The notes under the pieces: generated by a model
The model's input: the letters and a program-made list of their open reading frames with translations, nothing else
What the model was told of the DNA's origin: nothing
Databases searched by the model: none
In this document: in pieces, positions 34,831-55,404 of the stretch
Position numbering within the stretch: position 1 is the first letter of the stretch
Layout: every line of letters begins with the position of its first letter
Translations under genes and position numbers: made by a program
Assembly (NCBI GenBank): GCA_944320555.1
Contig: CALUHX010000007.1
Span: forward strand, 1 to 64,000
Direction: 5' to 3'
Length of the DNA: 64,000 bases
Origin: an uncultured Butyricimonas sp.
GTDB taxonomy: Bacteria > Bacteroidota > Bacteroidia > Bacteroidales > Marinifilaceae

Positions 34831-36147
34831 TTATATCAGTTGATTGAATAGATCCGAGATGGCGGGGTCGGATGGCCGGGGGGCGTTGGCGTCGTACACC
34901 CGCCCTTCCTTGTCGAGAATGATGAAGCGGGGGATGCCGCTTATTTTGAAATACGCCGAGAATGGCGAGTTGGTGGGGCATTTCTCGATGAGCTGCGCGC
35001 CGCCGAGCCGTTCGTCGCAGACGGTGCGCTGCCATTTCTCCCGGTTGGAGTCGCTGGAGATGCTGACGAAGGCGATGTCCTTGCCTGCGTATCGCTCCTC
35101 CAGTTTCTTCAAGTGGGGGATTTGTGCCCGGCAGGGGCCGCACCAGGTGGCCCAGCAGTCGATGTAGACGTATTTGCCCTTGAATTGCGACAGGGCGATT
35201 TCGTTGCCGTCCGTGTCGATGAAGGTGAAGTCGGGTATGGCTTTGCCCCGGAGGATGCGGCTCCATTCCTCGTATTCCCGTCTGATTTCTTTCCGGAGGG
35301 TGGCGGATTTCACTTTCCTGTCGAAGACGGCCATCAGTGGGGCGATTTCTTCCGCGCCCCGGAGAAGCATGTGGTTGGTCAGCACGGACTCCATGAGGAA
35401 GTCGGCCACGCCGCCTTGGGTGAAATGGGTGTCGATGTAGTCCATCTGGCTTTTGTTCACGTGATAGGTGTCATGCTCCGGAGCGGCGAACCACGCCACG
35501 AAATAGAGGGCTGCGCTCATGAAGTCCCGGTAGTCCGTGGTGGGCAGCAGGGTCGAGTCCTGCGTCATTTGTTCTTGCAGGAAGGGAATGATGTCCTTGG
35601 TCCATTGCCGGTATGTGAACATGCGGCTGAGTCCTTGGTAGCGCAGCCGTTTTTGCTCGAGCGCCTTGAAGGGGGCGGAGAGCGACGGTGTCGTTTCCAA
35701 CGCTTGGTGGTGGCGGTCGATTCTGTCCCGGATGATGCCGAGCACCTCCTCTTCCGTCATGTTTTGGCGGAGGGGGATGATGGATTGGCCGTGTCCGTCC
35801 AGGAACTCGTTTTCCGCCGCGCCTTTTCCCTCGAACTGGAAACGGGAGGCTCCTGTCGTTGGCTTGCCGTAGCGCATTGTGAAGTCGCATCCTGGCTCCA
35901 CATAGATGAGTTTTTTCATGCTTCCCGCCTGGAGTTGGGCATAGGCGGGTGCGTTGAGTTCGGTCCGCAGGACGGCTCCGTTCACGGTGTCATAGGGCAC
36001 TGCGAGGGTGTCGCCGTTGACGACGAGGCTCACCTTGTCGATGTTGTCGATGTAGCTTTTAAAAGTGACGGCGGCCTGCCGGGATTGGCATCCCGACAGG
36101 ATTCCCGCCGTCGCAATGAGAATGATTCGTATGGTAAATGTTCTCAT
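34831..36147 (-). CDS. TlpA-like thiol-disulfide lipoprotein (second copy)
   Basis: This 438-aa protein has a lipobox LSGC near residue 20 and is probably outer-membrane anchored on the periplasmic side. An N-terminal beta domain of DUF4369 type (about 25-120) is followed by a helical region. The C-terminal thioredoxin-like TlpA/AhpC domain has WCGPC with W335, C336 and C339. Both redox cysteines are present. Its match to the gene at 39686-41020 is close in design: both have W335. It is the last gene of the SusCD locus. Its substrate is unknown; TlpA proteins reduce or resolve disulfides. Confidence 0.85.
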   Translation of the reverse strand: MRTFTIRIILIATAGILSGCQSRQAAVTFKSYIDNIDKVSLVVNGDTLAVPYDTVNGAVLRTELNAPAYAQLQAGSMKKLIYVEPGCDFTMRYGKPTTGASRFQFEGKGAAENEFLDGHGQSIIPLRQNMTEEEVLGIIRDRIDRHHQALETTPSLSAPFKALEQKRLRYQGLSRMFTYRQWTKDIIPFLQEQMTQDSTLLPTTDYRDFMSAALYFVAWFAAPEHDTYHVNKSQMDYIDTHFTQGGVADFLMESVLTNHMLLRGAEEIAPLMAVFDRKVKSATLRKEIRREYEEWSRILRGKAIPDFTFIDTDGNEIALSQFKGKYVYIDCWATWCGPCRAQIPHLKKLEERYAGKDIAFVSISSDSNREKWQRTVCDERLGGAQLIEKCPTNSPFSAYFKISGIPRFIILDKEGRVYDANAPRPSDPAISDLFNQLI

Positions 36148-36149
36148 GT

Positions 36150-38477
36150 TTATTCGTTTTTATAGTCTTCCATTCCGATGTAATAGTCCGCCCGGTCGTC
36201 GCCCAGCAGGTGCTTGGCGAAGTAGAACCATATCTTGCGCCGCCAGAAGAGGTCCTTCGCGCCTTTGTACTGGTGGCCTTGTCCGGGCAGCACGAGCATG
36301 TCGAAGTTCTTTCCCGCGTCGATGAGTGCGCTGACCAGCCGCAAGGACTGTCCCGGGTGGACGTTGTTGTCCTCGTCGCCGGTGATGACCAGCAGGTGGC
36401 CTTGCAGCTTGGGCGCCAGTTCGGCCGTCGTCGGGATTTTGCAGGTGAACACGGTGTCGGCTCCCTTGACGGTCTGGGTGACGCCGTGGAAGGTCTCGCC
36501 CCACGCCCGGTTGTAGATGTTGCTGTCGTGGTTGCCTGAGGAGGCGACCGCCGCCTTGTAGAACCCGGGGTAGGCGCAAATCGCCGCCGCCGACATGAAT
36601 CCGCCGCCGGAGTGGCCGAATATGCCCACCCGGTCGAGGTCGATGTAGGGGTGGCGTTCCGCCAGTTGCTCGATGCCGCGCTTGTCGTCGGCGAGGGCGT
36701 AGTCGCGGAGGTTGCCGTATCCGTAGGTGCGGTAGGCCTTGTCGCGGAGGGGGCTTCCTCCCCGGTGGCCGAAGTTGACCACGATGAAGCCCACTTGGGC
36801 GAGGGCGGCGTTATGGTTGCCCGTCACGGTGAAGTCCAGGTCCACGGCCTCCATTTGGGGACCGGGATAGACGTAAGAGATGACGGGGTATTTCTTTGTG
36901 GAGTCGAAGTCGATGGGTTTCCACATCACGCCGTAGAGGTCGGTCTTGCCGTCCGCCGCCTTCACGGTGAAGCGTTCCGGCATTCTCCAGCCTGTGGCGA
37001 GAAGGGTGGAAAGGTCGGCTTCGGCCAGCGCGCGGACGAGTTTTCCGTTCTTGTCGCGGAGGACGGAGCGGGGAGCCATGTCCACCCGGGAGAAGTTGTC
37101 GGTGAAATAGTCGCCCGAGGGGCTGAACTCCACGTGGTGGTTGGCGTCCTCGGGGGTCAGCAGTTTCACCGCGCCGTCGCCGTCGAGGGTGGCTTTATAG
37201 AGGCAGGCGTAGTAGGGATTCATGCCCTCTTCCCGTCCGTGTCCGATGACGTAGACCTCCCGGCGGGCGGTGTCGATGCGGACGATTTTCTCCGCCATCC
37301 ACTCGCCTGCGGTGACGGGGCTTTTCAGTTGCCCGTCGGCGGAGTAGAGGTAGTAGTGGCCCCAGCCGGAGCGTTCGGACCACCAGATGAATTCCGTGTC
37401 GTCGTTGATGAAGGCGATGGACTGGTTGCGGTCGTTGAAATAGGGCTTGCACACTTCGTTGAGGATGACCGTCACCTCGCCGGTTTCCGTGTCGACGCGG
37501 CAGATGTCCAGCTCGTCGCGGGTGCGGCGTGTACGCTGGAGGTAGAGGTAGCGGCTGTCGGCGGAGACGTGGAGGAGTTTTAGTTCCTGGTCCTGCCATT
37601 TGGCGATGTCCACCTTCCTCACCTCGCCCGTCTCGGCGTCGAGGAGGGAAAGCTCGTATTGGGGCACGCGCTTGTCGCCCGGCATGATGTATTTGTCGCC
37701 GCCGATGGAGGTGACCAGCCGGGGCCGTCCGAATGAGGAGGAGACGACGGGCAGGGTGCCGATGCCGCGGTTGTCCACGCGGATGGCGAAGAGGCGGTGT
37801 GTGCCTTTCAGCCAGCGCGCCTTGGTGGTGAATATGCGGTCGTTGTCGTCCATCTCGTTGTCGGAATAGGAGAATTCCTTCACGCCGTCCGTCGTCAGGG
37901 GACGGGCGAGGGAGTCCGGCTCGTCGCTGCGGCGCAGCCACACGTTGTGTCGTTTGGAGAAGGCCACGTAGGCCCTGTCGGACGAGACGGAATACATCAT
38001 GGCCGTCGGGTTGTAGGGCTTGGCGGGCCGGTTGCCCGGTTTCTGACGGGGGATTTCCGTGCAGGTCCGGGTCTTCATGTCGTAACGCAGTTGCTTCTGG
38101 TTGGCCCAGAAGGTGAACTCGCCTTCCTTGCCCTCTTCGAAAATGGGGTTGATGTTCAGGTTGACGGTGTCACACGCCTTGCCTGTCAGCTCGGCGATTT
38201 GGGTGGCCATGCGTTCGTTGTCGAAGAGGGGTTCCATTTTCTTTTTCCGGGGATCCACGAGGTAATAGCTCGTGCCTTGGCTCGTCTTGTAGGAGAACCA
38301 GAAACGGTCGGTGCCCGGCAGGTAGCTGGGCTTCATCTCCTTGGAATAAATGAGGCTCCCGGCGTTCGACGGCAGGAATTGGTCGGCGGCCTTGTAGTTT
38401 GCCCGCTCCTGTCCGTGGAGTGCGAGGCTCCACAGACAGGTGGCGAGGCAGATAATTCCTAAGTGCAAAATCTTCAT
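36150..38477 (-). CDS. S9-family peptidase, DPP-IV-like
   Basis: This 775-aa exported serine peptidase has a signal peptide (residues 1-22, ending LALHGQ). The N-terminal DPP-IV beta-propeller spans about 60-480. The C-terminal alpha/beta-hydrolase domain has Ser623 in GHSGGGF, Asp near 701-703 in GDEDNNVH and His735 in GQGHQY, so the triad is complete. DPP-IV-like enzymes remove X-Pro dipeptides in the periplasm. The gene starts 3 bp before the TlpA-like stop... and is in one direction with thioredoxin-like and SusCD genes, which points to a role in peptide use. Exact specificity (DPP-IV versus prolyl tripeptidyl peptidase) cannot be told. Confidence 0.9.
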   Translation of the reverse strand: MKILHLGIICLATCLWSLALHGQERANYKAADQFLPSNAGSLIYSKEMKPSYLPGTDRFWFSYKTSQGTSYYLVDPRKKKMEPLFDNERMATQIAELTGKACDTVNLNINPIFEEGKEGEFTFWANQKQLRYDMKTRTCTEIPRQKPGNRPAKPYNPTAMMYSVSSDRAYVAFSKRHNVWLRRSDEPDSLARPLTTDGVKEFSYSDNEMDDNDRIFTTKARWLKGTHRLFAIRVDNRGIGTLPVVSSSFGRPRLVTSIGGDKYIMPGDKRVPQYELSLLDAETGEVRKVDIAKWQDQELKLLHVSADSRYLYLQRTRRTRDELDICRVDTETGEVTVILNEVCKPYFNDRNQSIAFINDDTEFIWWSERSGWGHYYLYSADGQLKSPVTAGEWMAEKIVRIDTARREVYVIGHGREEGMNPYYACLYKATLDGDGAVKLLTPEDANHHVEFSPSGDYFTDNFSRVDMAPRSVLRDKNGKLVRALAEADLSTLLATGWRMPERFTVKAADGKTDLYGVMWKPIDFDSTKKYPVISYVYPGPQMEAVDLDFTVTGNHNAALAQVGFIVVNFGHRGGSPLRDKAYRTYGYGNLRDYALADDKRGIEQLAERHPYIDLDRVGIFGHSGGGFMSAAAICAYPGFYKAAVASSGNHDSNIYNRAWGETFHGVTQTVKGADTVFTCKIPTTAELAPKLQGHLLVITGDEDNNVHPGQSLRLVSALIDAGKNFDMLVLPGQGHQYKGAKDLFWRRKIWFYFAKHLLGDDRADYYIGMEDYKNE

Positions 38478-39685: not shown

Positions 39686-41020
39686 TCATTTTTCGTTGTT
39701 CAACAATTCTCTGAATTTCTCGGCGGTCGCCTTGTCGGAGGGGCGGGTCATGCTGGAGTTGATGAACTTGCCCTCCCGGTCGAGCAGCACGAAGCGGGGC
39801 ACGGACATGGAGGCGGGCATGAATATCTTCAACCACTCCCAGTTCTCGCCCAGGTGCAATTGGATGCCGCCCAGTCCCATCTCCTCGATGGTCTTTTTCC
39901 ACAGGTCGATGTCCTTGTTGCGGTCGATGGAGAGGCTGACGAAGAGGATGTCCTCCCCGGCGAACTCCTTCTCTAATTTCAAGAGGCTGGGCATCTCCCC
40001 TTTGCAGGGGCCGCACCAGGTGGCCCACATGTCGATGTAGACATACTTCCCTTTCAGGTCTGCCAGCGTCACCGTGTCGCCGTGGTTGTCCGCAAATCGG
40101 AAGTCGGGGCAGGGTTGTCCCGGAGCGATGCGCTCAGCCTTTTTGCACGCCTCGGCGTAAAGGGCGAGCCGTTCGGGGTCGGTCACGTATTGGTTGTACA
40201 ACCGGTCATACCGCTCGATGCCCTGCTCCCCGAAGTGGAAGAGAGTGATGTCCACGAGGTAGGAGCGGGCTGCGGGTTCCGAAATGTTTTTCAGGATATA
40301 TTTCATCCGGATGTCGGCCAATCCGGCCCCCTCCGGTATGCGTCCTCCCTGTCGGTCGGCGGACACGCATTTGCGGATATATTGGTCCAATGCTTCCCGG
40401 TATGCCGGAATGGAGAGGTAGGTGGAGTCGCGGTTGATTCGTTCCGTCAGCAGCTTGACATGGTCGGGCGCGTTCATCAGCGGGACGCGCATCAAGGCGT
40501 TTAACGCTTCCACCTGTACTCGTTTGCTTTCCCATTCCTTGAAAGTGGCGGATTGGTCGCTTTCGGCCACTTTCTGGAGATTGACGGCCAGCACGGAGTC
40601 GATGGTCCGCACGTTCTTCTGCGGGTTTCTCTCCTGGTAGTCGAGTCTGTAGGGAAGGTAGTCGTTTTGATAGATGAAACGGTTTTCTGGAGCCAATGCG
40701 CCGTCGAACGTCACCGCTTTCTCGCCTTTCTTCATACTGTAGGTGAGAATGAGGTCCTTGCCTGGTTCGAGGTAGCAGAGTCTCCGGTCGTATTTACGCA
40801 CCTCCACGGTGGCGTAGGTGGGGGCTTTCAAGTTGAGGGAGAGCGCGCCTTTGCCTGCGGAGTCGATTGCCACGCTTTGGTTGTCCCAGCCGATGATGAC
40901 CCGGGGGGCGTTGCCATCGTAGTCGCTCACGTTGAAGCGGAGCGTGGTCGCCGTCTTTTCTTGTCGGCAAGAAGCCAGAAGGAACGGGAGGCATCCTATG
41001 AGTAATAGTATTCTTTTCAT
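39686..41020 (-). CDS. TlpA-like thiol-disulfide lipoprotein (first copy)
   Basis: This 444-aa protein has a lipobox LLASC near residue 17, an N-terminal DUF4369-like beta domain (FNVSDYDGNAPRVIIGW) and a C-terminal TlpA domain with WATWCGPCKGEMPS; W335, C336 and C339 sit exactly as in the paralogue at 34831-36147. Both redox cysteines are intact. It lies downstream of a large hairpin that may reduce read-through from the metalloprotease genes, so expression could differ from the upper part of the locus. Confidence 0.85.
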   Translation of the reverse strand: MKRILLLIGCLPFLLASCRQEKTATTLRFNVSDYDGNAPRVIIGWDNQSVAIDSAGKGALSLNLKAPTYATVEVRKYDRRLCYLEPGKDLILTYSMKKGEKAVTFDGALAPENRFIYQNDYLPYRLDYQERNPQKNVRTIDSVLAVNLQKVAESDQSATFKEWESKRVQVEALNALMRVPLMNAPDHVKLLTERINRDSTYLSIPAYREALDQYIRKCVSADRQGGRIPEGAGLADIRMKYILKNISEPAARSYLVDITLFHFGEQGIERYDRLYNQYVTDPERLALYAEACKKAERIAPGQPCPDFRFADNHGDTVTLADLKGKYVYIDMWATWCGPCKGEMPSLLKLEKEFAGEDILFVSLSIDRNKDIDLWKKTIEEMGLGGIQLHLGENWEWLKIFMPASMSVPRFVLLDREGKFINSSMTRPSDKATAEKFRELLNNEK

Positions 41021-41038: not shown

Positions 41039-41093
41039 GGGGCCTGTCGAAGCGCGGATTCATATTCTTTCCTTGCCCATGTTGACAGGCCCC
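41039..41093 (-). terminator. Large-loop hairpin inside the SusCD locus
   Basis: GGGGCCTGTC (41039-41048) pairs with GACAGGCCCC (41084-41093) around a 35-nt loop. On the minus strand the hairpin is followed by TTTCTC. It may be a partial terminator between the metalloprotease pseudogene and the TlpA gene. Confidence 0.6.
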
Positions 41094-41120: not shown

Positions 41121-43532
41121 CTATTTCGTTAGCAGGCTGGATACGGAACCCTTGTTCAGGCTGCGGGTCAGGAATATGCTAAGCCCGCGGTAGTATATGC
41201 GGCTGGCGGCGTCGCTGTGGGTCTTGCTCAGACGCTCCAGTTTCTTCTCCATCTCCTTGGCCTTGTTCACGAGGAAGAAGGACAGCGGGTCCTCTCCCTG
41301 CGCGGCTTTCGTGTTGCTGTAAGTCAGCATGAATTCCCGCACCATGTTGTATTGGAGCAAGGCCCGGAAGCGGTCCACGCGCTGGGTGGTGCTATAGTTC
41401 AGGAACACGTAGCGGTCCACGTCGTTGAAGAGGTCGGTCAGCGTGTAGGTGCCGGTGATTCCGTTCTCCTGCGGGGTCAGCAGGCGCGCCAAGGTGTTCT
41501 TTCCCATGAGCCCTCGGCAGACGTTCATGATGACTCCGGCCGATTTCGACTCGCCCACCAGGCCGATGACATCCTCCTCCAAAGGAACGGTCCGCCATTC
41601 GGGCGCACCTTGGAAAAGGTAACGGTTGAGGAATGCCATGGTCTCCTGTCCCTGTTTCCGGGGAAGGTAGGTCAGGGCCTTGTCGTTGTATTCCCTTAGG
41701 ACGGGGGCGACAGCCACACCGCCGAGGTCGTTCATCACGCCGCTCAGGTAGTTTTGGTACAGGCTGTTGTATTGGGCCATAAGTCCCACGAAATCGGTCC
41801 ACGGGGCGTCTGCCCGGTGGGTCTTCTCGAATATTTCGGGCAGTTGGGGTGCCAGCCGTTCCATGTTCTTCAGTCCGAGGGTGGCGGTCTCCAGCTTGTT
41901 GTTGCCGAGGTCCGCCTCTATCTTGTCGCTGTCGGTGCCGTTGATGCGGTAGTCGCCAGAGGTTGCGGCTGCGTAGAAGAGGGCGGGCTTGTCCTTAGCC
42001 TTGGCGGCGAGGTGGCTCAACGCCTCTGTCTCCGCCTTGGCGTCCATGCCGGGCTATTGGCGGTAGCCCCATTCGATGGCCCAGCGGTCGTAGAGGGAGG
42101 CTTTGGCGAAGAGGTCGCTCAAGGTCATCCCGTCGCCGGGTTGGGCGGCGAAGTTGGTGGCGCATCCGTCCGTCACGGAGGCGGAGATGCCGTTCTTCCG
42201 GATCCACTCGGCGTCGCGCAGTTGTTCGGTGGTGAATGCGCTGCTTGCCGCCAGGTTGGGGAGCAGCCCGAGCATCAAGCCGGTCTGGTTGGACATCCGG
42301 TAGCGGATGTATTCTTCCCGCACGGCGGGCATGGAGTCGGTCAGGAAGGCGGGATTGTATCCGCCCACGCTCATGGCAATCAAATCCAGGTTGTCGTTAA
42401 GTTCCTGATTGGAAAGCGCGATGCGTCCGCAGAGAATCTCGCCCGTGCGGGGGTCGCTCACCTGCGAGAACACTTCCCTGCCCATGACGTAGGAGAACAC
42501 GAGCTGGTGGTAGGCCATGGCGGCTTCCGGCTCGCCCTCCTGTATTTGCAGGGCGTTCTTGAACCCGGCGGCCTCGAAGCAGGCGTTCCACTCGGCCACG
42601 GCGCGGGACACCGCCCGGCGTTCAGCCGCGCTGCTCAGCGTGCGGTCCAGATAGACCCGGATGGGGTTGGCGGGTTCCACCAATTCGCCCCGGTTGTAGC
42701 GGTCGGTGTCTTCGGGGCGCACTTCCAGGTTCCAGCGTTGGATTTGTCTCACCCGCGTCACGCCGTTGGGGTTGCGGTCGTAGTCGTTGAACGAGATGGT
42801 CGCATATCCGATTCTCGGGTCCGACTCCCGGGCGGCCACTTGGCGTTCGGGCAGGAGTTGCAGGGTCCATTCCACGAGGACGCTCGTGTGCTTGTCCCGC
42901 GGGGGGATAAACATGAATCCGGGGATGACGTCCGTCTGGGCGCGGAGCGAGATGAACTTCACGCCGTCACGGATGACGTACACGCTGTCCAGCCCGGAAC
43001 GGTCCGCCGCCGGTTTGTTGACCTGCGACACGTTCGGGAAGGAGAAGAGCTTGCCGGAGGCGTTCACGTCCGCCGTGATGTCGATGATGTAGCTGTTCTT
43101 GTCCGGGCCGTAGGCGGCGATTGGATAGGAGAACTTCACCGGCTGCATCCCGGCGGCCTCCACCGCCTTGGCGAGCTCGCCTTTCGCCCGGTCGGCGCAG
43201 ATTTGCTGGCGCACCACCAGCTCGTTCTTCTCGCCCAGCTCGAAGGCGAGGATACTGGTCACGGAAGACACCGCCCCGTAATACTCGCCCTGTGTCACGC
43301 TTCCGCTCACGAGCAGGTCTCGTCCCAGCGCGGAGGCGGGAATCTCGACGTAGCATTTCTGTTTGTCGCGGTAGACGGGGAAGATGCCCTCGGTCTTCCG
43401 CATGTCGTTCTTGAAGAAGGCCTGGTAGGCCATGGGGGCCTTCGCTCCCGGCTTGTTGTTTTGCGCCGGGGAAAGGAGGGGCAGGCCCGCCAGCAAGAAA
43501 ATGAGTGCTATTATAATTTTGTTCATAATCAT
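41121..43532 (-). pseudogene. DUF5117/DUF4953-like metalloprotease paralogue broken by one TAG and lacking the zinc motif
   Basis: Two halves, 43532-42054 (492 aa) and 42047-41121, lie in the same frame, separated only by an in-frame TAG at 42054-42056 and two codons. Joined, they give about 802 aa that align end to end with the 839-aa protein upstream. At the break the intact paralogue reads GYRYLPQF where this one reads GYRQ-stop-PGM, so the stop sits where Leu stands there; TTG to TAG is one change. The zinc site is also gone: HEIGHTLGLRHN corresponds to NQTGLMLGLLPN (N415-N426), with all three His and the Glu replaced. A signal peptide (MNKIIIALIFLLAGLPLLSP) is intact. It could be a recent pseudogene of a catalytically dead paralogue, a sequencing error, or a read-through gene. 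Confidence 0.85.
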
Positions 43533-43554: not shown

Positions 43555-46074
43555 TTACTTGGACGCGGTTTCCTCGCCGTTGAGGCAGGTCTCGACGCGG
43601 TGGATGATGCCCTGCAGGTGGTTCTTGGTCACGAAGTCGTTCGTGCGAGCCATTTTCTTCTTGGCGTCCGCTACGATTCGGTCCATTTGGGCGGTGTAGA
43701 GGGCGAGGAGCTCCGGAATGACTTCCATGGGGCCGCTCTCCACGATGATGCAGATGACGGAGAGGTAGTTCCGTTGCATCATCCGCTCGAAGGGGGTCAG
43801 CGGCTTGGAGGTCGCAAGGCTTCCCCACACGGCCTCGTACATGTCGTCCGTGGCCTCCTTGCAGGTGTAGGTCTCGTTGCCCAGCATGGCCTCGTTCTTG
43901 GAGATGTATTGTAGGGAGGTCAGCAACTGGGCGAGGAATTTCCCGAACACCCGCTCGCGGTAGCGGTCGATGGACGGTTGCCCGAATAGGTGCGACGCCT
44001 CGCAATTGTACAACCACGGCAGCTCGCTGAAGAAATACTTCTTCAAGAAAGTCATGGCAGCCTCCTGTTTCTCCTTCTCCACCGGCTCGTAATTGTCCAT
44101 GCCTTCGGAGCGGAGGGCGGCGTTCGTGTAGCGTCCGCCGATGTATTTGATCGCATGGGTGAGGTAACGCAAGTGTTGTCCGAGCACGGCGTTGTACATG
44201 TTCTTCATCAGCGTGTACTTCTCGTCGTCTGCGGGGCCGGTCCAAGCCATCAGGCTGTCCATGATGACCTCCAGATTCTTCATGCCGAGGGTGTTGGCGG
44301 CGATGGCGTCGCTGCTCAGGTCCTCCGATTGGAATCGGGGGTCTTGCTTGTCGGTCTCCGTGCCGAAGAACACCTGCGGGTTGGCCTTCCGTTGGGCGGT
44401 CACCCAATCCTGGAGGTATTTCTGCTCTTCCCGGGCGTTCTTGAATTGCGGCAGGTAGCGGTATCCCCACTCGATGGCGAAGTTGTCGTAGTCGCCGATG
44501 CGGGGGATGAGGTCATCCGGGTCGATGTTGTCCCCCGGTTGGGCGACATAGTTGAAGCGGGCGTAGTCCATGAGGGAGGGGGTGTGTCCGTGCTCCTTCA
44601 CGTAGTCGCGGTTGCGGATGTCCTCCACGGAGCAAGTCCAGCTGGAGGCGAAGTTGTGACGGAGACCCAGCGTGTGTCCGATTTCATGGCATACGATGTA
44701 TCTCACTAATTCTCCCATCAGCTCCTCGCTGTACGGGAACTGGCGGGCGATCGGGTTGGCGGCCGCCGTCTGGGCGAAATACCAGCTTTGCACGAGGCTC
44801 AGCACGTTGTGGAACAATCCCACGTGCGAGCAGATGATTTCTCCCGAACGGGGGTCGGCCACGTGCGGCCCGTAAGCGTTGGGCATGGGCGACGCCTTGT
44901 AGGAGATGAAGGAATAGCGCGCGTCCTCCACGGAGAAGGTGGAATCCTCTTCCGGAGTGGGGGCGAGCTTGCCGATGATGGCGTTCTTGAATCCGATGCG
45001 CTCGAAGGCCGACTGCCAGGCGTTCACCGCCTCAATCACGTAGGGTTGCAGGTATTCCGGGGTGTTGCGGTCCACGTAGAACACGATGGGCTTCACCGGC
45101 TCCACCAGCTCGCCCCGCTTGTAGGCCTCCACGTCCTTCGGCTCCAGCCGCCAGCGGCTGACCATGCTGATTTTCTCCGCTTTCAGCGGGTCGCGGGTGT
45201 AGTCCGTCTTCCCGTAGGCGAAGTAGCCCACGCGGGAGTCGTAGTAGCGCGGTTGCATCGGCTCCTCCGGCAGCAGGTACCACGAGGCGGCCACTTCCCA
45301 TGTCGTCGGGTTCAGCGTCTGCGCCTTTTGTCCGGCTGCGGCCTTGGGCGGCTTCCCGGCGGCGTAGCTGCGCACGGAGCGGAAAATCACGTTGTTGGCG
45401 TAGGTGCTCACCGTCGTCGGGTAAGACTTGTCGGCCTGGTACGCCCCGAGGTTCAGCATGTTGGAGGCTCCCTTCAGCGAGAAATAGGAGTGGTCCGATT
45501 TGTACATGTCTGTGATGTCCACGAGGACGCTCGTGTCCGTCTTCGCCTTCACGTCGAACCCTTCCACAATCGGGGTCATGTTGGAAGCTTGGAGCGCGCC
45601 ATACATCTCCGAGGTGGAGTCCGGCATCACGGTCGAGAAAATCGGCTCTTGGAGGAAGAGTTTGTCCTTGCCTCCCTTGTCGAAGCGGATGACCTTGTTG
45701 AAGAGGGCGTCGCCGCCGAAGCCGTACATGTCCCGCGAGCTTCTGTTCTCCTGGGCGGAGCCGCGGATAAGGGACACGAACACGAGGATGTCGCGGCCCA
45801 ACAGTTTGTCGGGCACCTCCATGAAGTAGCGGTCGTTCTGCTCGTAGATGTTCACCATCCCGGCGTGGCGTTTCGCCGCGGGTTTGATGAAGTCTGCCAG
45901 CGAGGGGATGCCCTTCGGCTGCTGTTTCGTGCTGTCGGCCACCACCGCCGTGGGCTGGCCTTTTTTCTTCTTCTTGTTGTCTTTCTTCCGGTCGGCGCCG
46001 TTGGCGAACGGACTTGCCACAAGGAAGCATAGCAATAGTGCTAAGAGTTTCATGCTTAAATTAATACTTCTCAT
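43555..46074 (-). CDS. Zinc-dependent metalloprotease (DUF5117/DUF4953)
   Basis: This 839-aa exported protein has a signal peptide (ending near SPFANGA, residue 27). The order is a short basic linker, a DUF5118/DUF5117-like N-terminal region (about 55-300), then a metzincin-like domain with HEIGHTLGLRHN: H463, E464, H467 and H473 are the expected ligands and catalytic base. After it comes SLMDYARFNYVAQPGDN, the family's M-turn-like block. This type is common with SusCD pairs in Bacteroidales. It is the intact paralogue of the broken gene downstream, 23 bp away. Confidence 0.9.
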   Translation of the reverse strand: MRSINLSMKLLALLLCFLVASPFANGADRKKDNKKKKKGQPTAVVADSTKQQPKGIPSLADFIKPAAKRHAGMVNIYEQNDRYFMEVPDKLLGRDILVFVSLIRGSAQENRSSRDMYGFGGDALFNKVIRFDKGGKDKLFLQEPIFSTVMPDSTSEMYGALQASNMTPIVEGFDVKAKTDTSVLVDITDMYKSDHSYFSLKGASNMLNLGAYQADKSYPTTVSTYANNVIFRSVRSYAAGKPPKAAAGQKAQTLNPTTWEVAASWYLLPEEPMQPRYYDSRVGYFAYGKTDYTRDPLKAEKISMVSRWRLEPKDVEAYKRGELVEPVKPIVFYVDRNTPEYLQPYVIEAVNAWQSAFERIGFKNAIIGKLAPTPEEDSTFSVEDARYSFISYKASPMPNAYGPHVADPRSGEIICSHVGLFHNVLSLVQSWYFAQTAAANPIARQFPYSEELMGELVRYIVCHEIGHTLGLRHNFASSWTCSVEDIRNRDYVKEHGHTPSLMDYARFNYVAQPGDNIDPDDLIPRIGDYDNFAIEWGYRYLPQFKNAREEQKYLQDWVTAQRKANPQVFFGTETDKQDPRFQSEDLSSDAIAANTLGMKNLEVIMDSLMAWTGPADDEKYTLMKNMYNAVLGQHLRYLTHAIKYIGGRYTNAALRSEGMDNYEPVEKEKQEAAMTFLKKYFFSELPWLYNCEASHLFGQPSIDRYRERVFGKFLAQLLTSLQYISKNEAMLGNETYTCKEATDDMYEAVWGSLATSKPLTPFERMMQRNYLSVICIIVESGPMEVIPELLALYTAQMDRIVADAKKKMARTNDFVTKNHLQGIIHRVETCLNGEETASK

Positions 46075-46188: not shown

Positions 46189-47217
46189 TCATTTTATCGT
46201 GAAGCCGTACTCCTCCAGCTTGGCGCGCATCACGTAGTATTTCTCCTTAACCACGGGGAACTCCACTTCCTCCGAAGATACGACTTGTTCGTATCCATCT
46301 ATGGTTTCAGTCGTGTAGATGGTTCCCTTGGCGTAACGTTCCATGAATTCCTCCTCCGGATAGGCCAGGATGGCTTGGCAATACTGTTGCACGTCTTGTG
46401 CCTGAGTGGGTTGAAGCCACATGTTCGAGTGGTAAGGATCGTCGGGTAACCTATTTCCAGTGCCGACAGTGGAAGGTTCTGTTTTGGTTCCAATCATGCC
46501 CAAAAATCCGATGTGTTTGACTCCGGCTCTGTAAACCCCACTACCTTGAGCGTCCGTGGAATAGACCCTGCCTGTTAGATTTGAAGGCACCGTCGCATAA
46601 GACAGGGCGTAGAATTCATTCTCCAGCCATTCTGCCTCGTTCAAGCTCAACGTGGACATGATGCAGGAGGCCAAAAACGCTCCTTTCATCAGGTCTTTCT
46701 CCGCATCGGTCATTTCTTGGAAGCGGTGGGCCTGTCCGAGCACGGTGGTATTCAATCCCTTATAGGCAAGACTGTCGCCCGTTGGAGTGATAAGCGTGTC
46801 TACTACTAGGATGCTGGGCAGATAGGTGTTCTCTGGCACTTCCGGAAGAACCTTGTCGCGGAGGAATATAAGAAGGTCTTCTAACGAGTTCTTGTCTTTG
46901 ACGAGCGTATATCGTGCGGAGGAAGAGCCTGGCGTAGGTGCTCCCGGGGAGTAGAATACTTGCAATACCTCATAGTAAGTGTAATACAGCCCGCTACCCG
47001 CCGAGTAGCGTTCCTCGCTGCCGACCGTGTCGTTGTAGTAGATGGGATAACCCGTCTGCGTGTAGATTTCGTAACGCAAATGGTCTATCGGGTCCTCGGA
47101 GTCCTCCAGAACCAGCCAGTCTTTCTCCAATCCGGATGGCGTGAGGTCGTCCTCGTTCTTGCCGCAACTCCAGGCGAACAGGCAAAATAGGCTGAGAAAT
47201 AAGATATGTTTCTTCAT
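46189..47217 (-). CDS. SusCD-associated lipoprotein, possible degenerate zinc metallopeptidase
   Basis: This 342-aa lipoprotein has a lipobox-like AWSC near residue 18. Its general plan resembles the putative zinc-binding metallopeptidases (Mx1, PF15890) that often follow SusD: DHLRYEIYTQTGYPIYYN near the start and GFLGM plus a later helical CQAILAYPEEEFMERY. The HEFGH motif expected in that family is not there; the position reads MKGAFLASCIMSTLSL. This family assignment is tentative. It lies 12 bp after the SusD gene and may bind a substrate or be an inactive relative. Confidence 0.55.
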   Translation of the reverse strand: MKKHILFLSLFCLFAWSCGKNEDDLTPSGLEKDWLVLEDSEDPIDHLRYEIYTQTGYPIYYNDTVGSEERYSAGSGLYYTYYEVLQVFYSPGAPTPGSSSARYTLVKDKNSLEDLLIFLRDKVLPEVPENTYLPSILVVDTLITPTGDSLAYKGLNTTVLGQAHRFQEMTDAEKDLMKGAFLASCIMSTLSLNEAEWLENEFYALSYATVPSNLTGRVYSTDAQGSGVYRAGVKHIGFLGMIGTKTEPSTVGTGNRLPDDPYHSNMWLQPTQAQDVQQYCQAILAYPEEEFMERYAKGTIYTTETIDGYEQVVSSEEVEFPVVKEKYYVMRAKLEEYGFTIK

Positions 47218-47229
47218 GTTCTTCTTGTT

Positions 47230-48834
47230 TTAGTTTATGGGTTGTATTGGTCTTTCCGGGCGAACCTCATTGCTCAGGTTACCCTTGTTGAAGTCAATGG
47301 CGTCTTGCGGGATGGGTAACACGTAGGCCGCCTTGTCTTGCGAGTAGGGTTGCAGTACATACACGCCTTCCGTCGAAACTGTTCCATTGGTGTTCAAGTA
47401 ACTGATGTGACGGATTTCTTTCTCGAATGGGCACACGCTGTTCACGGCGTAGCGGCGCAGGTCGAACCAACGGTGTCCTTCAAAGCAGAGTTCCCGCCGA
47501 CGCTCGTCGCGGATGAAGTTGATGAGGTCGTCCCCGCTTTTGTCGGTGGCCTTGAAGTCGTTCGGGCTGAAACGCAACGCCCGCAGCTCGTCCAGCGTGG
47601 CGATGGCCTCCGCGTCGCGGTGGAGGCAGGCCAGGGCTTCCGCCTTGTTCAGGTAGGCCTCCGGCAGGCGAATAGCAAACTTGTCCGACACTTCCCGCTC
47701 GCAGTCAAGCATCTTCCAGCAGCAATAGCCGTTTGTCCCGGCCAAGGTGCGCTCCTTGAAGAACACATTTAGCCGCAAATCCGTCTGATCGTAACTGTTC
47801 ATTAAATCGTCCGAGCAAGTGTATCCGGTGCATTTGTTTACGTATCCTTGTCCGCTGACATACGCCCTGACTGCGTTAGGGAGCAGGGTGTGCATCATGT
47901 ACAGGCCGTGAGTGAAGATTGTCTCCGTGGAGTTGATGTCCACTGCGTTTGTCCCTTTTTCGTGGGCGTTCAAGTCGTTTAATGCGTAGTCTTTTTTGGC
48001 CAATACGCTGTCTGCGGCGGTGATGGCCGCTTCGTAATTCTCCATGTATAGGTGCACGCGGCTCAGCAGCAGGAAGGCTGCCGCCTGGTTGGTCCGGTAT
48101 TTGGTGGTCTGCGAGATTCCCCGCAGGCATTCCGCCGCCCGCGTCAGGTCCTCCACCATAAGCCCGTAGACTTCCTCGGCAGTGGCGCGCGAGAAATAGC
48201 GGTCCTCTACCTCCTCAGTGGTTTTCAATGGGATGCAGAGGTCAGTTGTGGCGCTTTCCTTGCGGTAGGGCTGGCCGTACACGTTCGCCAGCCAGAAGTA
48301 GAACTGGGCGCGCAGGAAACGGGCCTCGCCCTCCACCTTTCGGGCCATCTCCTGCTCGTCCTCGCCGATGGATATTTCTCCCAGTTGGAAGATGATGGAA
48401 TTCATGGCGGCGATGCGTTCCCAGGTCTCGGTCCAGTTGTTGTCGGTTATTTCTGCGTTTTGTGGGTTGCGGAAAGGATCGGGCTGCCAGTGGTGGAGAT
48501 TGGCGGCGTGCATGCGGATGTAGTTGTCGGTCTCGTCTGCGATGCCGGCGGTGTATTCCTGTGCGTCATCGTCCATCAGATGGATGTATGGGAAATAGTT
48601 CGGGGACGTGTTGGCGAGGTTTCCCCAAAAGGTGGTACTTGTAGTGTCGTCGAGATTTTTGCCAGTGGTTTCACCGCCCGTGAAGTATCCTTCCCCGATG
48701 AGAAGTTCGTTTAGGTCGGTCACGTTTTCCACGTAGGCTTTGTTCTGGGAATACTCTTTCAAAAAGTCGCCGCATGCGCCCAGTGAAAGAAGCGTCACGC
48801 TCATGACCAATGTCTGGAATAATCTGATTTTCAT
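47230..48834 (-). CDS. SusD/RagB-family outer-membrane lipoprotein
   Basis: SusD proteins cap the SusC transporter on the cell surface and capture the nutrient. This one has 534 aa, with a lipobox GAC near residue 21 (LSLGACGDFL). The SusD core is helical with TPR-like repeats such as EARFLRAQFYFWLANVYGQPYR near residue 173 and the later DELRALRFSPNDF and GHRWFDLRRY. The sequence gives no sign of glycan specificity. It starts 10 bp after the SusC gene ends. Confidence 0.92.
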   Translation of the reverse strand: MKIRLFQTLVMSVTLLSLGACGDFLKEYSQNKAYVENVTDLNELLIGEGYFTGGETTGKNLDDTTSTTFWGNLANTSPNYFPYIHLMDDDAQEYTAGIADETDNYIRMHAANLHHWQPDPFRNPQNAEITDNNWTETWERIAAMNSIIFQLGEISIGEDEQEMARKVEGEARFLRAQFYFWLANVYGQPYRKESATTDLCIPLKTTEEVEDRYFSRATAEEVYGLMVEDLTRAAECLRGISQTTKYRTNQAAAFLLLSRVHLYMENYEAAITAADSVLAKKDYALNDLNAHEKGTNAVDINSTETIFTHGLYMMHTLLPNAVRAYVSGQGYVNKCTGYTCSDDLMNSYDQTDLRLNVFFKERTLAGTNGYCCWKMLDCEREVSDKFAIRLPEAYLNKAEALACLHRDAEAIATLDELRALRFSPNDFKATDKSGDDLINFIRDERRRELCFEGHRWFDLRRYAVNSVCPFEKEIRHISYLNTNGTVSTEGVYVLQPYSQDKAAYVLPIPQDAIDFNKGNLSNEVRPERPIQPIN

Positions 48835-48844
48835 GGTGTGCTTT

Positions 48845-51800
48845 TTAGAAAGTTACGTTTAAGGTGAAAGAATAGTTCGGACGTAGCGACATGTTGACCG
48901 TGGGAGCGGCTCCCGACTGGGTCACGTCCTGGCCTTTGAGTGCCTTGTTCGTGATGGTGAACATGTTGGTGCCCGTGATGCTCAGGTAGGCGGATTGGAT
49001 GCCTATTTTCTTGCAGAATTCGTCGTGCACGTTGTAGCGGAACGACAAGGACTGCAGTTTCAGGTAATTCCCTTTCGCCACCCGGATGCTGGAATTGTCA
49101 TACATGGCGTAGACGTCGATTGGGGCGAATGTCGGCATCAGCCCGCTGGAGGTGTATTTTGTGTTGTTCCACCAAGGAAGTTCGTTTCCTGTTCTTAGCC
49201 CGGGAATGTTGGTTTTCAATTCGTCTCCAGATGTTCTCCAACGACGGGTAAATTCCCGGCGCATGTTCTTTTCCCCGGAAGGAGGAATGTCCATGGCGTT
49301 GTTGCCGAACAATTTCAGCAGCCGCACTTTGTTTCCGAAACTGTAGGTGAAGTTGAAGGAAAGGCCGAATTGGCGGTAGCCCAGATAGCTCGACACGCCT
49401 CCCTGCAGGGTCGGCACGCGGGTGCCCGATTCCTCCATGACCAGCTCGAACACTTCCTCGTCCTCTAATTGTGAGAATTGTTCATATAAAGCGTCGGCGT
49501 TCTCCTCTTCCAGGCCGGCGTACATGGGACTTCCGTCCTTGGAGCTCAAGCCCTTGAACCGGTAGGAGAAGAACGTGTTCAACGGACGGTCCACCAGTTC
49601 CACGTTGCCGGTCAGGTAGTCGGTGTAGGTGATTTCGTCGCGGATGGTGTTGCTTCGGTCGTCGATGGCTTTGGATATCAAGCTGTTCACCACTTGTCCC
49701 AACTGTGGGTCGATGCGCCACACGAAGCCCCGTTTCCCGCTGGCGTCCACCGTCTGGTTGACCGGTTCGATGTTCAAGGTGAGTTCCAGCCCTTGGTTCG
49801 ACAGTTCGCCCCGGTTGACCACGTAGGAGGTCACCCCGTTGATGTCGGACACTTTCTTGGTCAGGAAGGCGTCTTTCGTGTGTTTGTAGTAATAGCCGAT
49901 GGTGCCGCCGATTTTGTTGCGCCACAACGAGAAGGTCAGCTCCGCGTTGTAGGAGTGGGTGGTCTCCCATTGCAGGTCGGGATTTGGGTAGGTGTCGATG
50001 GTGGACTCGAATTCCCCGTACCAGGAATCCAGGTCGCCTTTGTTGATGATCATCCTGGTGGACTGGTTGTCAAGCATGTTCCCCTGAATGCCGTAAGAGA
50101 GTTTCAAAGCCAAGTCGTTCACGAAGTTGCTGTCCTCGAAGAAATCGCGCTTGATGTCCCAACGGCCGGAAACGGACCATATCGGCAACAGTTTCTCGTT
50201 GGCGCGGCTGCCGAATTGGTTCGAGCCGTCCATGCGGGTGTTGAAGTTAAACGTGTACCGGTCGTCGTACGTGTAGGTGACGGCCAGATAGGCGGAAGCC
50301 AGATTGGTCTTCGTGTCGGTGATTCTGGGTTTGTTCAAGGCTACCCATTGTCCGTAGCCATTATATTTTCTGAAAAGGTCCCCGATTAAAATGGTTCCGA
50401 AAGATTTTCCCCGTTCGGGATAATACCCGCGGGTGGTGTTCTGGTAGCCGTGGTATTCGTTGGAAGAGACTTCCCCTCCCAAGGCGATGTTCAACAGATG
50501 CTTGTCTGCGAACAGTTGGTTATAGTTGGCCTGCAACCGCAGCGTGTAGTTGTTCCGGCGGGTGTCCGACAACCGCAACTCGCCCCCGAACGGGCATTTG
50601 TTCGAGGAATGGGACGCATTACTGTCCTCGCCCGGGGTGGCGATGTCGTTCTGGCGCAAGGTGTGGATGTAATACGAGCCGTCCTCGAACACCGTCTCGT
50701 CGTTCGTCGAGCCGATGGTGTACGAGGCCGTTCCCTCCAGGTTCAGGCAGGAAAGTAGCCGGTATTTTAAGGTTCCCGTCAACGTGACCGAGTAGGTGTT
50801 TATGGTCTGGTAGGTCTTGTCCATTTCGTTTTCCATGTTGAACGGATAAGATAGTTCTTTCTTTCTTCCCCGTTGATAGAACCAGCGGTTGCCCTCCTCG
50901 TCGTAGGCGGGAATGGCCCGGCTCATGTTGTAGGCGTACTCGGTGATGCTGGTTTCCCCTCCCGAGCTGAGACTGGTGTTCGGGGTGTATTTCCGTTTGT
51001 TGTTGTTCGCTTGCAGGCTGAACTGGAAGTCCATCTTCTTGAAGTTTCCGTTCAGTTTCAAGTTGGCGGTGTAGTTCCGGTTGTATTCCTTCTTGATGAC
51101 GCCCTTCTCGTCGCCATACCCGATGGAGGCGTAGTAGCGGATGGTCTCCGAACCTCCGGACAAGCTCAGCGTGTGCTTGTTGGAGAACGAGTTTTGGCAA
51201 AGGATGTCAAACCAGTCCGTGTTCACTGTTTCGTAGTAGTCGGTGAGCCGTTGGAACTCGTCGAAGCCGATGCGCCCGTTCTTGTAGTCCACGTAGGCGG
51301 CCTCGTAGCCCACCCAGTTCGACACTTCCGTGAATTCCATGCCTCGGGCGAACAGTTCGCGCGACACGTCCACGCGTTCCTTGGAGTTCATCAAGTAAAC
51401 TTCCCGGTCGCTATAATAGGGACGGCGGTTTACGGTTCCCGAGAAGGAATAGGTCACATGGGGTTTGCCCACTTTCCCTTTCTTGGTCGTGATGACGATG
51501 ACCCCGTTGGCGGCCCGCGTTCCGTAGATGGCCGTCGCCGCGGCATCCTTCAGCACGTCGATTTGCTCGATGTCGTCCGGGTTCAAGCCCGAGATGGCGT
51601 TACCCAAGAGGTTCACAAAGTCCAGACTGTTCAACTCCGATGGGTCCACGTTCACCGGGTCGGTCTGTACGATACCGTCCACCACCCATAGCGGCTCTTG
51701 GTTGCCTAATACGGTGGATGTCCCTCTGATTCGTAGCTTCGGGGCGGCTCCCGCCTGTCCGGAGTTTTGCATGAAAATCATACCCGGCACGTATCCCTCT

Positions 51801-52561
51801 AGCATTTTGTCTACGGAGGACAGACCCGCCACGTTGATGTCGTCCATCTTGATGGTGGTGATGGCGCTCGTCAGCCTCCGGCGGTCGATGTCCTGGTATC
51901 CGGTCGACACCACGTTCACTTCCTCCAGGGCTTTCACGTCCTCCTCAAGGACAATCTCGTACTGCTTGTTGTCCGCCTTCTTGATGACGACCTCCTTGGT
52001 CTTCATCCCAATGAACGACACCACCAGCGTGTCCACCGCCTTGGGCACGTCCATCGAGAAGTCGCCGTTGCCGTTGGTGGCCGTTCCCACCGTCCTGCCT
52101 TTCAGTTGGATGGTCACGCCCGGAAGCGGGTTCTTCTGCTTGTCCACCACCTTGCCGATGACCACCCAGTTCTCGTCCTCTTTCCCCGCTGCGGGTTTCT
52201 GGCGGGCGGGTTTCAGGACGACGATGTTGTTCACGATGTCGTAGCGCAGGTTGAAGGACGGAAGCACGCGGTCCAACAGGACGAACAAATCCTCCTCCAC
52301 CGACTCCACGCTGACGCGCGTCTCGTTCCGCATCAGCGACGCATTGTACAGGAATTGCGTGCCGGTCTGATCCTTCAGCGCGGAGATGAACTCCGAAACG
52401 GTCGCGTCTTTCAGATTGAGCGACACCTTCGTCTGGGCGAAAGCGTTCGCGCTGAGGCTCAACTGAAAGGCCATGAGCAGTGCCGCGGTCAGCCGCAGCA
52501 TCATTTTCATTTTTCCGCAAGAAAATGAGAAAATGCGGTTCCTTTTGTGGGCTTTTTTCAT
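48845..52561 (-). CDS. SusC/RagA TonB-dependent transporter with STN signalling domain
   Basis: This 1238-aa outer-membrane transporter starts at the ATG at 52561 (a TTG five codons earlier is less likely). A signal peptide is followed by an STN domain (about residues 45-120, VSEFISALKDQTGTQFLYNA), which in Bacteroidetes passes signals to FecR. A carboxypeptidase-regulatory-like beta domain comes next (VVIGKVVDKQKNPLPGVTI), then the plug (GTSTVLGNQEPLWVVDGI, IYGTRAANGVIVITT) and the barrel ending in NYSFTLNVTF. SusD, FecR and the sigma factor are neighbours, so the transporter is likely induced by its own substrate. The substrate cannot be read from the sequence. Confidence 0.93.
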   Translation of the reverse strand: MKKAHKRNRIFSFSCGKMKMMLRLTAALLMAFQLSLSANAFAQTKVSLNLKDATVSEFISALKDQTGTQFLYNASLMRNETRVSVESVEEDLFVLLDRVLPSFNLRYDIVNNIVVLKPARQKPAAGKEDENWVVIGKVVDKQKNPLPGVTIQLKGRTVGTATNGNGDFSMDVPKAVDTLVVSFIGMKTKEVVIKKADNKQYEIVLEEDVKALEEVNVVSTGYQDIDRRRLTSAITTIKMDDINVAGLSSVDKMLEGYVPGMIFMQNSGQAGAAPKLRIRGTSTVLGNQEPLWVVDGIVQTDPVNVDPSELNSLDFVNLLGNAISGLNPDDIEQIDVLKDAAATAIYGTRAANGVIVITTKKGKVGKPHVTYSFSGTVNRRPYYSDREVYLMNSKERVDVSRELFARGMEFTEVSNWVGYEAAYVDYKNGRIGFDEFQRLTDYYETVNTDWFDILCQNSFSNKHTLSLSGGSETIRYYASIGYGDEKGVIKKEYNRNYTANLKLNGNFKKMDFQFSLQANNNKRKYTPNTSLSSGGETSITEYAYNMSRAIPAYDEEGNRWFYQRGRKKELSYPFNMENEMDKTYQTINTYSVTLTGTLKYRLLSCLNLEGTASYTIGSTNDETVFEDGSYYIHTLRQNDIATPGEDSNASHSSNKCPFGGELRLSDTRRNNYTLRLQANYNQLFADKHLLNIALGGEVSSNEYHGYQNTTRGYYPERGKSFGTILIGDLFRKYNGYGQWVALNKPRITDTKTNLASAYLAVTYTYDDRYTFNFNTRMDGSNQFGSRANEKLLPIWSVSGRWDIKRDFFEDSNFVNDLALKLSYGIQGNMLDNQSTRMIINKGDLDSWYGEFESTIDTYPNPDLQWETTHSYNAELTFSLWRNKIGGTIGYYYKHTKDAFLTKKVSDINGVTSYVVNRGELSNQGLELTLNIEPVNQTVDASGKRGFVWRIDPQLGQVVNSLISKAIDDRSNTIRDEITYTDYLTGNVELVDRPLNTFFSYRFKGLSSKDGSPMYAGLEEENADALYEQFSQLEDEEVFELVMEESGTRVPTLQGGVSSYLGYRQFGLSFNFTYSFGNKVRLLKLFGNNAMDIPPSGEKNMRREFTRRWRTSGDELKTNIPGLRTGNELPWWNNTKYTSSGLMPTFAPIDVYAMYDNSSIRVAKGNYLKLQSLSFRYNVHDEFCKKIGIQSAYLSITGTNMFTITNKALKGQDVTQSGAAPTVNMSLRPNYSFTLNVTF

Positions 52562-52651
52562 AGTTTTGTGAAACAAATTTGATGTTAAACATTGAGAGGA
52601 GATGCGAATGCCAGACCTGAGAAATTTGTCATTCGTGTCCCTCTTCTTTTT

Positions 52652-53824
52652 TTAGTATAGGATAACAGTATTTCCGTTGATTTGATATCGGACATCCTCC
52701 GACGCGGCCAGTGCCTCCAGAAAGGCCTGAAGGGAATTCTCGCGCCTCAGGTTGCCCGTGAAGCGGATGTCCCTCGCCCGCGAGTTCTGGAAAAACACCT
52801 CGATTCCGTACCGGTGGGCCAGCGTCGCCATCACGTCCTCCAGCCGCTCCTCCCGGAAGAAGTACCACCCGTCCTTCCATCCCACGAACTCCTCCACCCG
52901 CACCTTCCGCTTCTCCACCGGGCCGCTTGCCCCGGCCACGGCCTGTTCCCCCGCCGTCAGCTCGACGCGGTTCCCCTCCTTGTTGGTGAACCGCACGCGG
53001 CCCGACACCAGTGTCGTCAGCACTTCCTCGTCGTAGGCGCGGACGCCGAACGAGGTGCCCAGCACCCGCACGCTCCCCGCTTCCGTCTGCACGATGAAGG
53101 GCCGTCCGTCCTTCACCACCTCGAGGTAGACCTCGCCCTCCACCGAGATGTGGCGTTTGTCCCGGGCGAAGGCCACGGGATATCTCACCCGCGTGTTGGA
53201 GTTGACCCATAGTTTCGAGCCGTCGTCCAGCACCACCTGGAATTCTTTGCCTGTCGGCACGAACAGTTCGTTGTATCGCGCGGCCTCCCTTTCTTTCACC
53301 GTGTCCTGCCGGTAGGTCAACGCCCCGCCGCTCTGGTGTATCTTGGTTCCTTGCTCCACGTCCAGCACCGAGTCGGTCTGGAGGGAGGAGAGGTCGACGC
53401 GTTGGCCGTTGGAGAGGCGCAACTGGATGCTCTCTGTCCGCGCCAGGCTCGGCGTCTCCCGTTCGGCGCGGGCCCCGTCGCCCTTCCCCGTCAGCAGCCA
53501 CAGCGCGACCGCCGCAGGCAGCGCGACCGCCGCCGCGTATCCCGTGAGCCGCGCGATGCGGCGGAAACGCGCCGCACGCTTGCCGGCCCTCAGCCGACCC
53601 AGCAGCTCCTCGTGCTTCGCTTGCAACACCCGGGGAGGAAGTCCCTCCGCCGCGTCGGTCTCTCCGCCTTTCCTGGCCTCCTCGTAGAAACGGGCGTGCG
53701 CGGGCGACTCCTCCAGCCACCGGCGGAGCTCCCGCTCCTCCTCCTCCGAGAGTCCTCCCCGGAAGCTCTTCGAGATAAGCTCCCAGTCCACGAATCCGTT
53801 TGTCCTGTTCTTTTCCGTTGTCAT
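52652..53824 (-). CDS. FecR-family anti-sigma factor
   Basis: FecR spans the inner membrane, holds an ECF sigma factor and releases it when the STN domain of its SusC reports substrate. The ATG at 53824 gives 390 aa. A helical N-terminal cytoplasmic region contains LSEEEERELRRWLEESPAHARFYEEA, one transmembrane helix follows (about 85-105, TGYAAAVALPAAVALWLL), then the periplasmic FecR domain with LDDGSKLWVNSNTRVRYP and VLGTSFGVRAYDEE, and the DUF4974 end. The sigma factor gene lies upstream but is separated by a MITE-like element and a Bro-N remnant. Confidence 0.92.
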   Translation of the reverse strand: MTTEKNRTNGFVDWELISKSFRGGLSEEEERELRRWLEESPAHARFYEEARKGGETDAAEGLPPRVLQAKHEELLGRLRAGKRAARFRRIARLTGYAAAVALPAAVALWLLTGKGDGARAERETPSLARTESIQLRLSNGQRVDLSSLQTDSVLDVEQGTKIHQSGGALTYRQDTVKEREAARYNELFVPTGKEFQVVLDDGSKLWVNSNTRVRYPVAFARDKRHISVEGEVYLEVVKDGRPFIVQTEAGSVRVLGTSFGVRAYDEEVLTTLVSGRVRFTNKEGNRVELTAGEQAVAGASGPVEKRKVRVEEFVGWKDGWYFFREERLEDVMATLAHRYGIEVFFQNSRARDIRFTGNLRRENSLQAFLEALAASEDVRYQINGNTVILY

Positions 53825-55045: not shown

Positions 55046-55098
55046 TGTCTTGGTTTGTCGTTGTGCGCTTTCGGGCGGATGCCCCGAGTTTATTTTGA

Positions 55099-55106
55099 CA
55101 AATTTA
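55099..55106 (-). promoter_or_regulatory. -7 box of the sigma-factor gene
   Basis: The minus strand reads TAAATTTG, a perfect TAnnTTTG match, 54 nt before the ATG. No clear TTTG lies 19 nt upstream. Confidence 0.5.
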
Positions 55107-55404
55107 CGGAAAATCTTCGGAATCCGAGCCTTGCCGGGCTTAATAATTCTTTCTTTGCGTTTTTCCTTGTTTTTTCTCTCCATTCCCCGCCGCCGCGGGG
55201 AGCCGCTCCGGGACGGCCCGGGGGGTGGCGGCGCGTTCCGCCCCGCTTCCCCGAAAAAACTCAGCTTGTTCATTATATATATAGTCCGTCCGTCACAAAT
55301 AATAGCCCGTCCGTCTTCCTTAATGACACCCCGGGAGGGGCGCGTGCGCAGCGGGGGAAAGTCGGGGGTAGGAGGCGGGTAGGTAGGGTGTAGCCTGGGA
55401 GTTG

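Follow-up and report, generated by a model that had tools for sequence, protein, structure and literature searches.

Immediately downstream of an intact metalloprotease gene, in a SusCD locus of an uncultured Butyricimonas sp., lies a homologous gene whose product is devoid of zinc ligands, and this pseudoprotease (PS) is, on balance, predicted from its sequence to be a conserved non-catalytic partner of the upstream metalloprotease (MP) in a peptide-uptake system. PS very probably has a job other than cutting, because its relatives keep it whole and it has long been co-inherited with an active MP. The copy in the window, as the whole stretch of 64,000 nucleotides analysed is called here, is interrupted by one in-frame TAG and is probably a recent truncation, i.e. 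a loss or reduction of function. The genes of the locus are listed below in the order in which they follow one another on the minus strand, each with the sites that lie within it.

54458-55273, minus strand: ECF sigma factor
52652-53824, minus strand: FecR anti-sigma factor
48845-52576, minus strand: SusC, TonB-linked outer-membrane transporter
47230-48834, minus strand: SusD
46189-47217, minus strand: lipoprotein
43555-46074, minus strand: MP, partner metalloprotease, intact (DUF5118-DUF5117-PF16313)
44653-44688, minus strand: active site of MP, HEIGHTLGLRHN
41121-43532, minus strand: PS, pseudoprotease gene, with a signal peptide recognised by eye, DUF5118 and DUF5117, a metzincin-like core devoid of zinc ligands, a helical domain at the C-terminus and one TAG
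42255-42290, minus strand: former active site of PS, NQTGLMLGLLPN, located from the sequence
42054-42056, minus strand: in-frame TAG, codon 493 of PS, in the linker that joins the metzincin-like core to the C-terminal helical domain
41121-42047, minus strand: open frame downstream of the TAG, which starts at an ATG after two intervening codons, lacks a signal peptide as judged by eye and encodes the PS-clade motif H-x-D-x3-R
39686-41020, minus strand: TlpA/AhpC-TSA-type lipoprotein, conserved beside PS in the equivalent loci L043, L044 and L164
38512-39678, minus strand: thioredoxin-like protein, in paired loci either conserved or fused with DPPIV
36150-38477, minus strand: S9 dipeptidyl peptidase IV (DPPIV), conserved in most paired loci
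34831-36147, minus strand: second TlpA/redoxin-type protein, present in the L043, L044 and L164 loci

This layout, with adjacent SusC and SusD genes, a surface lipoprotein, degradative enzymes and an ECF sigma factor with FecR, is that of a SusCD nutrient-import locus in which the enzymes are proteases, and the DPPIV encoded in it is nearest to solved bacterial DPPIV enzymes. A peptide-importing SusCD system is represented by RagAB. The SusC-SusD-surface lipoprotein-enzyme arrangement is shared with the SusCD utilisomes for levan and dextran (PMC7618045), to which the window locus adds the ECF sigma factor and FecR. It is unlike these utilisomes in that proteases (MP and DPPIV) replace the glycoside hydrolases and in that an inactive protease copy is included. 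The lipoprotein at 46189-47217, between SusD and MP, takes the position of the 'substrate import-associated zinc metallohydrolase lipoprotein'. Two of its homologues (L094:6514-7473 and L274:7031-7963) score above the cut-off of PF15890 (Peptidase_Mx1) and match TIGR04549 weakly, while HExxH occurs in none of 17 homologues and the window's own copy has no direct hit; the lipoprotein is possibly another degenerate zincin of the locus. At L094:12336-15551, L048:3748-6939 and L162:10815-14000, all in paired loci, a fusion protein of ~1060 aa combines the thioredoxin-like protein with DPPIV, which suggests that the two act together.

PS and MP share their domains and the order of these, namely DUF5118 (PF17162), DUF5117 (PF17148) and PF16313 (Met-zincin, DUF4953), which are those of the Bacteroidota 'zinc-dependent metalloproteases'. 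All three models score above their Pfam cut-offs, PS being matched in two pieces and MP whole, and the profile match between PS and MP is near full-length (E 6e-128). At the site where MP has HEIGHTLGLRHN, with the HExxHxxGxxH pattern, PS has NQTGLMLGLLPN, with NQTGLMLGLLP at the zinc-site position, which bears out the statement of the preliminary description that the zinc ligands are missing. In a comparison set of 28 MP-PS pairs from Odoribacteraceae, Mangrovibacterium and Chitinophaga, the three His and the Glu of the zinc site are present in every one of the paired MPs, whereas not one of the 28 PS has any of the three His. As the PS also form a single clade, these counts uphold the view that the loss of catalysis long preceded the stop, and a check of relatives across species likewise found no PS with a complete active site. 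The Met-turn reads SVTDG in the window PS versus SLMDY in MP, and its Met is found in all 28 paired MPs but only in a minority of PS. What sets PS apart from the PF16313 family is thus the absence of every zinc ligand and, in most cases, of the Met-turn Met; the models of this family do not separate the paired MP and PS clades. PS no longer has the catalytic residues or those that probably form the substrate rim; it retains scaffold residues and the C-terminal H-x-D-x3-R motif typical of the clade, which lies downstream of the TAG.

In the AlphaFold model of the L043 PS (pLDDT 84.8), a metzincin-like core (residues 244-494) is followed by a helical domain, and this core aligns with karilysin at Z 9.3 and with MMP3 at Z 8.8, over 140-143 residues. 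The model of the window MP (pLDDT 85.7) has a core at 282-540 (Z 9.1 to karilysin), again followed by a helical domain. The metzincin matches were obtained with VIA-align alone and, since Foldseek searches with the PS and MP models gave no match at E <0.001, they are fold resemblances of moderate strength; solved relatives were also sought by sequence and none was found. At these moderate scores, a metzincin fold is predicted for the PS core. Several ligands of the HExGHxxGxxHD motif are replaced in the ADAM pseudopeptidases of family M12 (for example ADAM2, ADAM18 and ADAM22), which have a metzincin fold (PMC11266112). PS resembles them in its fold and in its replaced zinc ligands, but the ADAM pseudopeptidases are animal transmembrane proteins with disintegrin domains, which usually keep the Met-turn and do not share an operon with an active copy.

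An equivalent locus, in which PS is intact and HExxH-less, is present in three genomes of one neighbouring genus (L043 in G023, L044 in G011 and L164 in G046), the PS proteins being 53%, 50% and 48% identical to the window PS, respectively. Additional paralogous MP-PS loci occur within the window's family. Outside this family, the pair is found in Mangrovibacterium lignilyticum (L094) and in Chitinophaga sedimenti and its genus (L112, L271-L275), in the order SusC-SusD-(lipoprotein)-MP-PS-(thioredoxin)-DPPIV, and the locus order is conserved in Odoribacteraceae, Mangrovibacterium and Chitinophaga. The MP-PS pair recurs across two classes of Bacteroidota, and individual genomes carry it at several paralogous loci. 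Among 295 sampled genomes of the order and 395 sampled genomes of the phylum, scores of >800 bits were restricted to the window's family, the other matches reaching at most 556 bits and those fetched having HExxH, while PS was found in six of the 60 sampled genomes of the C. sedimenti genus (at least 697 bits; next match at most 556). These bit scores across the genus, order and phylum samples point to a patchy distribution of the pair, by loss or transfer.

MP is always located upstream of PS in the 28 pairs, the two genes being -14 to 66 nt apart. Among the fetched loci, some of which overlap, 57 MP-clade copies have PS as the next gene, with one exception. This count is partly selected since the loci were collected by similarity to PS; no PS without MP was seen in these loci. 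A candidate orphan MP in L112 was rejected as a fragment of a frameshifted gene, and at L112:7403-9917 (Chitinophaga sedimenti) MP is split by a frameshift into two overlapping frames and PS is intact. In a quick FastTree phylogeny of 99 proteins, all PS form one clade with a support of 93, which rises to 100 when the long-branch row L170 is left out. Of the 28 paired MPs, 27 form a separate clade (support 100) that contains no unpaired protease. This tree is in agreement with that of an IQ-TREE run made earlier on 61 proteins. When MP and PS trees are built separately, 20 of 25 splits are common to both, and the distances among the MPs and those among the PS are correlated at 0.95, a value matched in none of 5000 permutations. 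As any two operon neighbours are expected to give matching trees, these figures show co-inheritance rather than contact.

Between L043 and L044, dN/dS is 0.071 for PS, as compared with 0.037 for MP, 0.10 for SusD, 0.14 for the lipoprotein and 0.13 for TlpA, and PS outside this genome is, judging by these ratios, under strong purifying selection. Two simpler accounts were rejected: that PS is a family-level relic pseudogene, on the basis of this dN/dS value and the lack of a substitution excess after the window TAG, and that the zinc-less copies reflect chance decay, on the basis of dN/dS together with the clade structure. At the level of the family, the structural or regulatory role proposed in the preliminary description is the better reading, given a dN/dS of 0.07 and the regular presence of an active copy alongside. 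The zinc site has also been lost elsewhere in the protease family of MP and PS. L175 (G006:C6:355000-374500) carries a tandem array of the form active-inactive-active-inactive-active, in which the loss is independent of the paired clade and the inactive copies adjoin active ones. In the genome of the window itself, a copy at L172:9451-11994 (L011; G000:C47) reads HEMGHVLGLDD, the third His being replaced by Asp; it is located between two active copies, has a long branch and falls outside the PS clade.

Partnerships between an active and an inactive homologue are known among the M16 peptidases. The alpha and beta subunits of MPP are homologous active and zinc-less proteins, the inactive subunit being essential for substrate binding, and the bacterial M16B heterosubunit peptidases consist of an active and a zinc-less partner encoded in two-gene operons (PMC11266112). 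MP-PS resembles MPP and M16B in comprising two homologues, one active and one zinc-less, and, at the level of the genes, these are adjacent and co-inherited, as in heteromers of the MPP/M16B type. M16 peptidases are, however, inverted zincins (HxxEH) with a different fold, whereas MP has HExxHxxGxxH, beginning with HEIGH, and matches PF16313 and no M16 model, and the MP-PS pair has a modelled metzincin-like fold and is encoded in a SusCD import locus.

In the proposed mechanism, PS and MP, whose signal peptides were judged by eye, would be exported and would associate in the cell envelope, where PS may help to hold or select the protein substrate, or may steady MP. MP would cut the substrate, the resulting oligopeptides would be imported by SusCD and DPPIV would trim the imported oligopeptides. 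PS might instead act alone as a substrate- or peptide-binding protein that feeds SusCD without binding MP, comparable to surface glycan-binding proteins in polysaccharide loci. This is considered rather unlikely, even though PS is located in a SusCD locus and combines a conserved scaffold with variable catalytic and rim residues, and a precedent exists in the levan system of B. theta, where a non-enzymatic binding lipoprotein is part of the transporter complex (PMC7618045). A free-standing receptor would be expected to be paired occasionally with other proteases, but the fetched MP-clade copies always adjoin PS and PS is not seen apart from MP; furthermore, PS has no lipobox Cys by eye. A non-catalytic partner of MP is therefore preferred as the role of PS. 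A further-reaching version, put forward tentatively as a possibility just short of probable, is that MP is a metzincin-type protease functional only as an obligate pair with its zinc-less twin inside a SusCD peptide-import machine, with the lipoprotein on the SusD side perhaps being another degenerate zincin.

The window PS at 41121-43532 (minus strand) is a single frame, the sole interruption of which is the TAG at 42054-42056. Its two halves, 42054-43532 (492 aa) and 41121-42047 (308 aa), are identical in strand and frame and are separated by TAG, then CCC GGC, then ATG; no frameshift was found at 41121-43532. The PF16313 profile (316 positions) is covered consecutively, at positions 7-97 by the first half, which also matches DUF5118 and DUF5117, and at 103-311 by the second, confirming the initial account of two halves in one frame with TAG and two codons between them. 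GC3 is 0.856 before the TAG and 0.826 after it, whereas the alternative frames of the second half reach at most 0.57. The preliminary description had further aligned the stop with a Leu of the intact paralogue and had explained it by a change of TTG to TAG. The Leu is indeed present in the neighbouring MP, as CTG, and Leu also occurs in one distant copy, but in the three true orthologues this column is occupied by Phe, Phe and Tyr, so that the TTG-to-TAG route is not established.

Relative to the outgroup L164, the substitutions unique to the window PS and to the L043 PS number 52 and 48 in the N-terminal half and 41 and 36 in the C-terminal half (Fisher p 0.88), and this lack of extra change after the TAG indicates that the stop is either young or an assembly error. 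Long free evolution of the second half should have given a clear excess of substitutions, contrary to these counts, and it is unlikely that the TAG is older than ~1/5 of this lineage's branch, according to a hand estimate from the substitution counts (95% upper bound of ~1.9-fold excess, dN/dS of 0.1 to 0.2). A 7-residue in-frame insertion downstream of the TAG in the window PS is missing from the three orthologues. Among the PS copies compared, the TAG is confined to this genome. A candidate second disrupted PS, with a TAG in G011:C14, and disrupted copies in G045 (TGA) and G047 (TAG) were rejected, as the matches had overrun the ends of intact ORFs. The 100-nt gap between PS and TlpA, which spans just 4-27 nt in the orthologues, contains a perfect 10-bp inverted repeat (GGGGCCTGTC...GACAGGCCCC; window positions 41039-41093, fold z-score -2.5), which was rejected as a repeated mobile element on account of its single occurrence in the genome.

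Recent decay, which the preliminary description had raised, fits this one copy, as does an error. The latter, a sequencing or assembly error in a gene that is really intact, is a minor possibility, to which the draft state of the genome (134 contigs), the absence of extra change after the stop and the maintained codon bias lend some weight. Nonsense errors nevertheless appear to be uncommon in this assembly, since no internal stop is found in any of the 56 SusC matches (~1000 codons each) or the 10 other PF16313 matches of the same genome. Read-through or recoding of the TAG, by which full-length PS would be made, had also been suggested at the outset; the sequence stays open in this frame before and after the stop and shows no loss of constraint. 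Yet no tRNA with a CUA anticodon is among the 49 found in this genome, which is 96.7% complete, and TAG is an ordinary stop, terminating 11 of the 45 long ORFs in the window and PS itself, so that read-through is unsupported. As internal stops are also absent from the other pseudoproteases compared, this explanation is regarded as extremely improbable.

The TAG aligns with residue ~495 of the PS model, in which the first Met is absent, and thus with the linker that follows the metzincin core, between helices at 482-492 and 500-516. A truncated product would, on the model, retain the core and lose the C-terminal helical domain, with the partner MP unaffected. The sequence TAG CCC GGC ATG and the position of the stop, between helices at the end of the core, could also be taken to mean that PS is now two genes, with the core and the helical domain made as separate chains after a restart at the ATG six bases past the stop. 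This is very unlikely, as no signal peptide is seen by eye on the second chain, which would remain in the cytoplasm, the Met in question is shared with L043 and L044 and is consequently not a new start, and the coincidence of stop and domain boundary was spotted post hoc.

Pseudopeptidases that are teamed with an active relative are already known from mitochondria and from a few bacterial M16 operons. The MP-PS pairs form a sizeable set that is supported by sequence, has a different protease fold and comes from Bacteroidota of the gut and the environment. They also supply context for DUF5117, DUF5118 and DUF4953, which are still so labelled; a literature search, covering few subscription journals, found no publication that names DUF5117 or PF16313. 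With the window PS as a probable natural truncation, and thus a ready test case, the contribution of an inactive protease to protein feeding via SusCD becomes testable.
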